DNA of 58,295 bases from Candidatus Margulisiibacteriota bacterium (GTDB taxonomy: Bacteria; Margulisbacteria; WOR-1; O2-12-FULL-45-9; XYB2-FULL-48-7). The translations under genes and the position numbers were made by a program. Positions 3,697 to 57,988 of the stretch are shown here, piece by piece; within the stretch, counting starts at the first letter, position 1, and every line of letters starts with the position of its first letter. The notes under the pieces were generated by a model. That model did not search any database. It saw only the letters and a program-made list of their open reading frames with translations, and had not been told where the DNA came from. Where the stretch lies: NCBI GenBank assembly GCA_018822365.1, contig JAHJKL010000038.1, positions 1 to 58,295 of the forward strand, given 5' to 3'.

Positions 3697-4757
3697 TGGC
3701 GCAGCTCCGCGAAGCTCTCAGCAAGCTAAGGGACTATGTTCCCGGGAAACCTCCCGTCGGCCCCAAGGGGATCAAGCTTTCCTCCAATGAAAACCCCTTT
3801 GGCCCCTCTCCGCTGGCTGTAAAAGCGATAGCCAAAGAAACAGGGCACATTCAAGCTTATCCGGATCAGCGATCGGGCCTGCTGCGAGAAGCCATCGCTA
3901 AAAAGTTTAAAATATCACCGGAGTCGGTGATTGCCGGCAATGGGTCTGACGAGATCATGCTTCTTCTCGCCGCGACTTTTCTGCGGCCGGGAGAAGAGGC
4001 TATTATCTGTGAGAATAGTTTTAGCCTTTATGAGTTTGTGGTCCGCCTTTTTGAAGGGAACCCGGTTCTTGTCCCTCTTGATCATTACCATCAGGACCTG
4101 GAGGCCATTGCGAGGGTCATTACCTCCGGGACAAAATTTATTTTCTTGACCAACCCGCACAATCCGACCGGCACCTTTATTTCACGTTCTGAATTAGAAC
4201 GTTTTCTCGCCCGTGTCCCTAAAGAAACACTGGTTGTCGTTGATGAAGCATACGCGGAATTTGCCGAATCTGTTGATTTCCCGGGCGCGACGCATTTATT
4301 GGGCTCTTTCCCCAATGTGGTTTTTTTAAGGACTTTTTCAAAGTATTACGGGCTAGCCGGGCTGCGAATCGGCTATGCCCTGGCCGATCCGTTGTTAGCC
4401 TCTCCTATGTTTAAGGCCAAGCTCCCTTTTAATGTCAATCGCCTGGCCCAATCAGCCGCATTAGCCGCCCTGTCTGATAGGGCGTTCCTGGAAAAGACGT
4501 ATAAGAACAACCTTGAGGGGAAGAAGGATCTCTACGCACTCTTTGATAAATATCGATTGTCATACCTGAAGAGCGAAGCAAATTTTATCTTTGTACGCAT
4601 TGGCCGCTCTGCTGACAATTTTTGCCAGGCGGCCCTTGAGCGCGGGGTTAGCTTAAGGCCTTTAACCTCATTCGGTCTTCCCGACGCGATCAGGGTCTCC
4701 GTTGGAACAAAAGAGCAGAACAAACAATTTATAAAGGTTTTTGAAGGGCTTATTTAG
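3696..4757 (+). CDS. hisC: histidinol-phosphate aminotransferase
   Basis: This is a PLP-dependent fold-type I enzyme of 353 residues, the normal HisC length. It converts imidazole-acetol phosphate and glutamate to histidinol phosphate in histidine synthesis. Visible motifs are LSSNENPFGPSP at the start, NPHNPTG near residue 153, VVDEAYAEF near 181, and the Schiff-base lysine K216 in TFSKYYGLAGLRIGY. No other his genes lie in the window, and broad-specificity HisC homologues can also act on aromatic amino acids, so the exact substrate is inferred. Its stop codon overlaps, tail to tail, the end of the opposite-strand gene. Confidence 0.88.
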   Translation: MAQLREALSKLRDYVPGKPPVGPKGIKLSSNENPFGPSPLAVKAIAKETGHIQAYPDQRSGLLREAIAKKFKISPESVIAGNGSDEIMLLLAATFLRPGEEAIICENSFSLYEFVVRLFEGNPVLVPLDHYHQDLEAIARVITSGTKFIFLTNPHNPTGTFISRSELERFLARVPKETLVVVDEAYAEFAESVDFPGATHLLGSFPNVVFLRTFSKYYGLAGLRIGYALADPLLASPMFKAKLPFNVNRLAQSAALAALSDRAFLEKTYKNNLEGKKDLYALFDKYRLSYLKSEANFIFVRIGRSADNFCQAALERGVSLRPLTSFGLPDAIRVSVGTKEQNKQFIKVFEGLI

Positions 4758-5944
4758 GCCGCCTTCTCTAGCTGGTACAATATCCCATGTGTCGTCCCCA
4801 GGTCTACTCTTCCAATTTTTTCCTTCTTTAAGAGCCCGGCAACGGCTTGCTTGAGCTTCTCACCTGATACCCGCCCGCTATAATACCCGTTGATTAAGCC
4901 TGAAAACAAACCAATGAAGAGGTCCTTCCCCAAGACTCCGGCAATTGATTTTTCTAGCCGGTCCGCCCCGCCAAGAAAACGCTGAAAATCGCAGAGCCTT
5001 GAATAGTATGGGACAGGGACCACCCCCGACTCAAACATGGCCCTTTCCCTGATGTTTTCTATCGCCTTTGGGTCTTCATGCACCCGGCGCCAAAAGAGGG
5101 CTTCTGCTTCTTCAAATGTCCGCATCCCTTCTGTGTCTATCAAATGGCCATGGATCTCTACATTGGCCGAATGCAGCGATGAGTACCAGATCGGCTTGCG
5201 AAAGGTTTGCCCGGCAACAACCCCGACCCTCATTGGGTTATGAAGGGTGTATCCGGCTTCGTGCAGTTTCTTTAGTTGCCGCCCCAATCGTTCGCCGCTT
5301 TCGTACAAGAAGCGTTCAGTCGAAACCGCTTCAAGCTCTGCCAAAAACGCGGTTACGGGAACAGGTGAGTCTATCCTTAACCAGGGAAAATAACGGGAGC
5401 CGTTGGTCACGGTCCGGAATAGCTGCGCATATCCATCATACATGCTGGAATACTCAAATAAATTCGTTACCCCGCATTCCACTTCACCGATCAATCGCAG
5501 GCCAACCGCTTCATTCCGAGCGGCAGATAACGATAACAGCCCCTCCGGGTCCCCTGAGTTTGGGTTGAGCTTGCCAAGATCAAACTGGAGCGGTGTTTTT
5601 CCTTTAAATTCTATAACCTTTCCGTCTAACGCAATTATCCACATGGCTCTCCGGCTATGGCTTTGGATCGCCATTTTGGGAGCAAACGAGAACCACGCTT
5701 CTTTTGATAAACGATTCTCCCACTTTATGCTGGTCAACAACACCTTCTTTTCGTGACTGAACAGGCAGGGGCTATAACCAGAGGTTCTGCCAATGATCCC
5801 CTCTCGAAATGTTTCCGCCCGATCTAACTGGGCATTGTTGATCCTGGGAAAAAGCAGGCGCAGGTGGTGGCGGTAAATCCCCCTTTGGACCTTCTCTTTT
5901 AATATTTTTGTCCCGGCTATGTTCATCTCTGTATATATCGTCAT
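4754..5944 (-). CDS. divergent SelO-like pseudokinase (candidate protein AMPylase)
   Basis: I see no close family, but two stretches resemble SelO (YdiU). Around residues 119-160, LQFDLGKLNPNSGDPEG followed by SAARNEAVGLRL lines up with the SelO region that contains SS-R-E and leads into LGIPTT. At 261-270 an Asn is followed nine residues later by Asp in LIDTEG, the same spacing as the SelO catalytic-loop Asn and DFG-like Asp. SelO proteins transfer AMP to proteins. At 396 residues it is shorter than typical SelO (about 480-550), and the loop Asp preceding Asn is Ala here (AN rather than DN). It may therefore be a distant or altered member. It ends overlapping the hisC stop and diverges from gcvT. 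Confidence 0.4.
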   Translation of the reverse strand: MTIYTEMNIAGTKILKEKVQRGIYRHHLRLLFPRINNAQLDRAETFREGIIGRTSGYSPCLFSHEKKVLLTSIKWENRLSKEAWFSFAPKMAIQSHSRRAMWIIALDGKVIEFKGKTPLQFDLGKLNPNSGDPEGLLSLSAARNEAVGLRLIGEVECGVTNLFEYSSMYDGYAQLFRTVTNGSRYFPWLRIDSPVPVTAFLAELEAVSTERFLYESGERLGRQLKKLHEAGYTLHNPMRVGVVAGQTFRKPIWYSSLHSANVEIHGHLIDTEGMRTFEEAEALFWRRVHEDPKAIENIRERAMFESGVVPVPYYSRLCDFQRFLGGADRLEKSIAGVLGKDLFIGLFSGLINGYYSGRVSGEKLKQAVAGLLKKEKIGRVDLGTTHGILYQLEKAA

Positions 5945-5948
5945 TTTC

Positions 5949-5977
5949 TTAACATAATTTCAAAAAGGGTATATAAT
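5949..5977 (+). promoter_or_regulatory. gcvT operon promoter, leaderless arrangement
   Basis: TTAACA (5949-5954), a 17-base spacer and TATAAT (5972-5977) form a near-consensus sigma-70 promoter. Only six bases separate the -10 box from the gcvT ATG, so transcription should begin at or within a base of the start codon. No ribosome-binding site is present. Confidence 0.65.
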
Positions 5978-5983
5978 AAAAAG

Positions 5984-7052: not shown

Positions 7053-7343
7053 ATGGACCTAAAGAAATTGTATTATTATTTGCTTTCGTTTGTCGCGCTT
7101 TTCATTCTTTTCTGGGGAACAGTTGACCTGGCCAACACCTTTGTTGGCTCGTTCTACCGGGCCCCAGCGCCAGCCACCGACCAGACTATGATGCCCGACA
7201 CGATAAACGACCAGGGCCTTGATCTTTATTACCAGAAAAAAATGCTGCTCGACCGCTACTCCGACAGCCTGATCAGGATAATTATCAGCGGGTTGGTTTT
7301 CTTATACGCAAAAAAACGGGCCAATGATCTGGAGCAGGGATAA
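7053..7343 (+). CDS. small two-helix membrane protein inside the glycine-cleavage operon
   Basis: The 96-residue protein has a hydrophobic helix at about 8-30 (YYLLSFVALFILFWGTV), a proline-rich loop, and a second helix at about 74-88 (IRIIISGLVFLYAKKRA). It resembles DUF5671-type membrane proteins in layout, but I cannot name it firmly. It begins four bases after gcvT and its last base overlaps the gcvH ATG, so it is co-transcribed. It is not a known part of the glycine cleavage system. Confidence 0.6.
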   Translation: MDLKKLYYYLLSFVALFILFWGTVDLANTFVGSFYRAPAPATDQTMMPDTINDQGLDLYYQKKMLLDRYSDSLIRIIISGLVFLYAKKRANDLEQG

Positions 7344-16928: not shown

Positions 16929-16957
16929 AGTATAACAAGAAGAAAAGAAATATTCAA
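16929..16957 (-). promoter_or_regulatory. dnaA promoter
   Basis: On the minus strand TTGAAT (16952-16957), a 17-base spacer and TATACT (16929-16934). The start point should fall about eight bases before the dnaA ATG. Confidence 0.6.
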
Positions 16958-24421: not shown

Positions 24422-24627
24422 ATTGGAATTATAGCATAAAAAGTAAAATGCAAAAGGGAGCAAGCTAGAAAGGGGAATATGATAAATGCATTATCGCCAC
24501 CAATAATGTTATTGGCGAAAGGATTGACCGAAAATAGTAATAGGCATAAGGCGGGCAAAAATAAGGGATGATTGAAGCCTACAAACTGAAGGGTGATGAT
24601 TAAAAAATATATGAAAAAGAAAAAATA

Positions 24628-31113: not shown

Positions 31114-31131
31114 GTTATACGATTATAACAC

Positions 31132-37067: not shown

Positions 37068-37109
37068 AAATGTGATTATAGCAGAAGGGGGAAGGGCCAG
37101 CCCCTCTTT

Positions 37110-41522: not shown

Positions 41523-41530
41523 AGTATTTT

Positions 41531-41559
41531 ATTATACTGTAATTATATGTTATACTCAA
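41531..41559 (-). promoter_or_regulatory. aminotransferase promoter, overlapping the divergent subtilase promoter
   Basis: On the minus strand TTGAGT (41554-41559), 17 bases, TATAAT (41531-41536), then eight bases to the ATG. On the plus strand TATACT (41551-41556) lies seven bases before the subtilase ATG, so the two elements overlap back to back. Confidence 0.55.
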
Positions 41560-41563
41560 GGCG

Positions 41564-57958: not shown

Positions 57959-57988
57959 ATTATACTTAAAAAAGGGGGTAATTGTCAA
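57959..57988 (-). promoter_or_regulatory. promoter of the yceD-rpmF-plsX-fab operon
   Basis: On the minus strand a perfect TTGACA (57983-57988), an 18-base spacer and a perfect TATAAT (57959-57964). The predicted start is a few bases before the yceD GTG. Confidence 0.8.

Follow-up and report, generated by a model that had tools for sequence, protein, structure and literature searches.

The aminomethyltransferase gene gcvT of an uncultured Candidatus Margulisiibacteriota bacterium is preceded by a TATAAT hexamer that lies 6 bases before its ATG. The question raised by this locus is whether such a hexamer is the -10 box of a promoter giving an mRNA without a leader, and how widely this arrangement is used. 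The window, which is the whole stretch of 58,295 nucleotides analysed here, is one of the 88 contigs of a 1.68-Mb draft genome (95% complete). The gcvT protein has 72% identity to that of candidate division WOR-1 bacterium RIFOXYB2_FULL_45_9, a match located in the same-genus genome G064, and 57% identity to that of a Candidatus Saganbacteria genome, and every other match is at or below 48%. Saganbacteria are placed in the Cyanobacteriota/Melainabacteria group in the NCBI taxonomy.

Genes were sampled from the window and 39 further stretches of the source genome (600,406 bases, 36% of the genome), where a gene finder based simply on codon usage, which chooses starts without regard to the upstream sequence, called 525 genes, 497 of them with a complete start and upstream region. 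The comparison sample from G064 consisted of 400 kb with 349 genes. Genes were taken as leaderless candidates (n = 88) if a TA...T hexamer differing from TATAAT in no more than one letter stood 5-12 bases upstream of the start; the TG of an extended -10 box and the -35 box were unused in picking them. Operon structure was taken from intergenic distance only, and a gene less than 20 bases behind its same-strand neighbour was treated as operon-internal.

Predicted promoters in the window

The features of the window are as follows.

5949..5954, + strand: -35 box TTAACA of gcvT, matching TTGACA in 5 of 6 letters, 17 bases before the -10 box
5972..5977, + strand: -10 box TATAAT of gcvT, 6 bases before ATG 5984, kept in the same-genus locus L001
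5984..7048, + strand: gcvT, predicted leaderless, aminomethyltransferase (Pfam GCV_T and GCV_T_C)
16929..16934, - strand: -10 box TATACT of dnaA (Pfam Bac_DnaA), 15 bases before ATG 16913
24428..24433, - strand: -10 box TATAAT, with TGC before it, of the DegT-type aminotransferase gene ('gnnB'; Pfam), 6 bases before ATG 24421, kept in G064
31122..31127, - strand: -10 box TATAAT, with TGT before it, of a pyrE-like phosphoribosyltransferase gene (Pfam Pribosyltran), 8 bases before ATG 31113, kept in G064
37075..37080, - strand: -10 box TATAAT, with TGC before it, of maf (Pfam Maf), 7 bases before ATG 37067, kept in G064
41523..41563, no strand: divergent intergenic region of 41 bases between the class III aminotransferase and subtilase genes, with two interlocked predicted leaderless promoters
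41531..41536, - strand: -10 box TATAAT of the class III aminotransferase gene (Pfam Aminotran_3), 8 bases before ATG 41522, kept in G064
41551..41556, + strand: -10 box TATACT, with TGT before it, of the subtilase gene (Pfam Peptidase_S8), 7 bases before ATG 41564, kept in G064
57959..57964, - strand: -10 box TATAAT of yceD (Pfam YceD), 11 bases before GTG 57947
57983-57988, - strand: -35 box TTGACA of yceD, with an 18-base spacer to the -10 box

The gene identities are those given by Pfam, and 'gnnB' is the name used for the DegT-type aminotransferase gene in an earlier note on this DNA. That note had placed the hexamer 6 bases before the start in gcvT and 'gnnB', 7 bases in maf and the subtilase gene (TATACT), and 8 bases in the pyrE-like and class III aminotransferase genes, and had described the six genes as lacking a ribosome site. 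All six spacings are exact, and the SD core is absent from all six genes. As shown in the list, TGn stands directly before the -10 box in four of the six (DegT aminotransferase, maf, pyrE and subtilase). The -35 box TTAACA of gcvT is identical in L001, and both -10 boxes and both spacings of the 41-base aminotransferase/subtilase region are kept in the G064 locus L131. For dnaA and yceD, leaders of about 5-8 bases had also been proposed. Their -10 spacings are 15 and 11 bases; the predicted leader is about 8 bases long and lacks an SD in dnaA, and is about 4 bases long in yceD. The 42 bases compared in the yceD promoter region are identical in G064.

It is very probable from these features, and from the counts given below, that ordinary housekeeping-sigma promoters direct leaderless transcription at about a third of first genes, while SD initiation serves many others. 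The promoters would consist of TTGaca, a 17-base spacer, often TGn, and TATAAT. Transcription would start at the start codon or within about 0-5 bases of it, so that the mRNA would have no leader, and the ribosome would initiate on the 5'-terminal AUG by the 70S (leaderless) pathway familiar from other bacteria.

The two neighbours of gcvT were also considered. A small DUF5671-like gene (7053-7343, + strand; below the Pfam cut-off) follows gcvT after 4 bases and has its own TTGACA, 18 bases, TAAAAT, 6 bases and ATG, which lie inside the end of gcvT and are kept in G064. The gene at 4754-5944 (- strand) encodes a 396-aa protein, for which no Pfam family was found. A mirrored leaderless start for this gene (TATGTT, 6 bases, ATG 5944) was dropped; ATG 5944 is not conserved, as the frame opened by it in G064 meets a stop six codons later, and the start that is conserved lies six codons further in.

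Positional enrichment and promoter anatomy

A scan suggested in the earlier note, for TANNNT ending 5-9 bases before the start, gave 100 matches, compared with 47.8 ± 7.0 in 100 dinucleotide shuffles (maximum 66), and 70 matches at spacings of 6-8 bases, compared with 28.5 (maximum 43). TANNNT is a weak, degenerate detector, and the signal is carried by TATAAT-like hexamers accompanied by TG and a -35 box. At spacings of 6-8 bases, TATAAT-like hexamers occurred 50 times versus 4.0 in the shuffles (maximum 10), and exact TATAAT occurred 32 times among the 497 genes versus 0.93 in 100 dinucleotide shuffles (maximum 4). Exact TATAAT was found 15, 5, 12, 3, 1, 7 and 4 times at spacings of 6, 7, 8, 9, 10, 11 and 12 bases, respectively, and 0-2 times elsewhere. 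In this sample, spacings of 6 and 8 bases are thus commoner than 7, and a smaller rise of exact TATAAT is seen at 11-12 bases; matches at spacings of 9-12 bases would give leaders of roughly 2-5 bases. Before 2631 internal in-frame ATGs, used as a control, there was almost no TATAAT. In the whole source genome, the pattern TATAATN{5,9}ATG occurs 182 times and its reversed pattern 53 times. The -10 hexamer near starts is real and exceeds chance.

AT-rich intergenic DNA can yield functionless TATAAT-like words near starts, and the degenerate TANNNT, with a shuffle mean that already reaches 47.8 at spacings of 5-9 bases, is a detector on which such chance words would register. Individual genes could still be accidental matches. 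For the whole set, however, an origin by chance is refuted by position and by the spacing of the -35 box: the peak is confined to 6-12 bases, exact TATAAT at spacings of 5-9 bases occurs 36 times versus 1.6 in the shuffles (maximum 6), and the matches carry -35 and TG marks and are conserved. We regard this explanation as having almost no probability.

The features that were left out of the selection describe the promoter itself. The TG of the extended -10 box is present in 51 of the 88 candidates versus 2 of 32 controls in the source genome, and in 41/64 candidates versus 1/24 controls in G064. When the 88 candidates are aligned on the hexamer, T and G reach 67% and 75% at the two extended -10 positions. 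The TTG of a -35 box is found at a 17-base spacer in 23 of the 88 and at an 18-base spacer in 7, with 0-5 at the other spacers from 8 to 24; in G064, it is found at the 17-base spacer in 14/64 candidates. Matches of 5 or 6 letters to the -35 box number 15, compared with 2.3 in the shuffles. TTGACA-like -35 boxes thus lie 17 ± 1 bases from the -10 box, as in sigma-70-type promoters.

The hexamer could instead be an A/T-rich translation element bound by S1, of the kind considered for genes lacking an SD in other phyla, with transcription beginning further upstream. An S1-type protein is present (its best match, at 300 bits, falls short of the curated rpsA cut-off), and S1 is raised as another explanation of such biases in the available part of one paper (PMC5397173). 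However, neither TGn nor a TTG placed exactly 17 bases upstream would be required by an S1 site, and such a site would have no need to concentrate at first genes; the probability of this explanation is accordingly put very low.

Gene context and conservation of the start mode

Candidates make up 41 of the 106 divergent first genes versus 14 of the 241 operon-internal genes (Fisher 2e-13). The SD core is found in none of the 41 divergent candidates versus 19 of the 65 other divergent genes (4e-5), in 3/88 candidates over all contexts, and in 106/241 operon-internal genes; 46 of the 106 divergent genes have neither signal. The excess of candidates over shifted positions in the source genome is 36% for divergent genes, 17% for same-strand genes at least 20 bases away, 4% for operon-internal genes and 15% for all genes. 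The corresponding values in G064 are 33%, 20%, 4% and 14%. The best reading of these counts is that, in the genus, the leaderless mode probably serves about one in three divergent first genes and roughly 15% of all genes.

Two start modes had been proposed to coexist, and this proposal holds, with the SD core in 179 of the 497 genes alongside the -10-adjacent starts. Coexistence is indicated because operon-internal genes are almost without excess and many of them have the SD core. The 16S genes of G064, G069 and G035 end in GGATCACCTCCTTTCT, with the anti-SD CACCTCC intact; the 16S search gave no match in G028, only a broken one in G066, and none in the source draft. Given an intact SD pairing site and the presence of an S1-type protein, the natural reading is that one cell uses two start modes.

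The promoters could be real and yet serve mRNAs with ordinary SD leaders, if the true start lay downstream and the adjacent ATG were misassigned. An SD and an in-frame start within 35 codons downstream are found in 13 of the 88 candidates, and a few candidate starts may therefore be misassigned; the background among SD-led genes is 17/176. There would also be no reason for a promoter at a fixed distance from an ATG that is not a start. The start codon is ATG in 81/88 candidates and in 321/409 other genes. In 14 conserved genes, the differences counted by codon position are 42/26/94 over codons 2-16, compared with 35/44/33 over the 30 bases upstream of the start. Codon periodicity thus begins at the adjacent start codon, which marks it as the predicted translation start, and a downstream start is highly unlikely for the set.

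These 14 genes come from the comparison of the 497 source genes with the 349 genes of G064, which gave 111 reciprocal best hits; 69 of them have the same start by alignment, and the other 42 were excluded. Among the 69 pairs, all 14 source candidates are also candidates in G064, versus 0 of the other 55, and the spacing is equal in 11 of the 14. The 14/14 agreement partly reflects shared ancestry, because upstream regions of such close genomes are about 70-75% identical anyway, and in one of the 14 pairs (window 7053) the promoter falls within the last part of gcvT, where the sequence is also under coding constraint. The identity within the conserved pairs is 0.83 for the hexamer, 0.73 for the spacer and 0.65 for the discriminator. 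The leaderless-type reading of the earlier note is hence supported by genome-wide positional enrichment, promoter anatomy and conservation within the genus, with the transcript 5' ends placed by prediction.

In the more distant Saganbacteria locus L002, gcvT instead starts with GTG and has an SD-like AAAGGAG, which indicates that genes are not tied to one start mode. The genome of this locus, G092, is itself rich in the pattern (82 versus 11 reversed).

Divergent distances under 70 bases are common. In L089 (11962-11977), only 16 bases separate two divergent genes; each strand carries a TATAAT, the two hexamers sharing two bases, and any -35 boxes must fall within each other's coding sequence. 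Bidirectional promoters are described in the literature (PMC12825309, as far as its available part goes). A single favoured spacing, as for shared symmetric promoters, was considered and rejected; the divergent distances have no single peak, and the 16-base case is therefore treated as an oddity.

Known systems and spread across the phylum

Actinobacteria and Deinococcus-Thermus are well-known users of leaderless promoters. In Mycobacterium, transcriptome studies reportedly find leaderless and SD-led genes in one genome. The mycobacterial starts were mapped experimentally, according to the parts of PMC3898074 and PMC4633059 available to us, whereas those described here are predicted from DNA. 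In the corresponding part of Zheng et al. 2011 (PMC3160421), TA-led (leaderless) genes are given for 207 of 953 genomes. The likeness lies in a TA-like signal roughly 10 bases upstream of the start, beside SD-led genes, in the TAtaaT form at medium GC, and in a TG before the box in several low-GC genomes; the difference is that the groups of the 207 positive genomes, as given there, do not name Margulisbacteria, one group being 'unclassified'. Deinococcus-Thermus is alike in having leaderless mRNA and a -10 motif situated a few bases upstream of the ORF, as was shown with reporters and with transcript levels (Zhong et al. 2025, PMC12340547, available part). In that group, about 30% of ORFs are concerned, compared with about 15% of genes here, where a -35 box and an extended -10 box are frequent. 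The accessible text of the StartLink paper predicts leaderless starts for 21.6% of bacterial species. The open-licence literature searched gave no report of leaderless starts in Margulisbacteria (WOR-1/Saganbacteria), Melainabacteria or candidate-phylum metagenome-assembled genomes.

The mechanism is already established elsewhere and is unsurprising, and the signal described here is clean. A cyanobacteria-related candidate phylum joins the lineages with a sizeable share of probably leaderless genes. Gene finders that expect an SD may misplace starts in these genomes, and the clean positional signal provides a ready set of predicted transcript starts.

The scan of 74 genomes of the phylum included 31 from the class of the window, and in every one of these TATAATN{5,8}ATG is commoner than its reversed control. 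A stricter test compared TGNTANNNT at 6-7 and 16-17 bases from ATG, a position ratio that is blunt in AT-rich genomes; the mean ratio is 1.60 in the class (29/31 above 1), 2.18 in family f30 (8/8 above 1.6) and 1.01 in the other 35 genomes (15 above 1). Gene-based counts were made in 12 samples from 13 genomes, G042 and G037 of f30 being pooled, and G025 was excluded, as its five stretches of about 0.55 kb are too short. The peak is clear in the source genome, G064, G069, G028 and G014, and weaker in f30 (G042 + G037). Outside the class, G028 has 19 matches at spacings of 6-9 bases versus a mean of 3.9 (maximum 10) at shifted positions, and G014 has 9 versus 0.6 (maximum 2). The trait therefore reaches beyond the class, and a class boundary drawn from the reversed-pattern control was rejected as overstated. 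G035 has no peak at these spacings (2 versus 1.75 at shifted positions), and G034 has no clear one, with small numbers (5 versus 2.1, maximum 5). The counts in the remaining small samples are 3 in G046 (shifted maximum 3), 3 in G073, and 4 each in G047 and G059 (shifted maximum 2 in each of these three).

It is conceivable, though we think it rather doubtful, that leaderless initiation is old and phylum-wide in Margulisbacteria, kept for conserved first genes, and that it allows divergent genes intergenic regions of 14-70 bases, with two complete promoters interlocked or partly inside neighbouring coding sequence. The mode is kept gene by gene within the genus (14/14) and switches further out, which makes the phylum a useful place to ask if leaderless starts are the ancestral state.

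In other groups, represented by 18 genomes hand-picked from 80 loci of the gcvT search, the pattern is mostly about 1-2 times its reversed control, with a few higher values from small counts. In G014 (L212-L216), the SD core is present in only 6 of 69 genes, and nine -10-like boxes lie 6-9 bases before the start.
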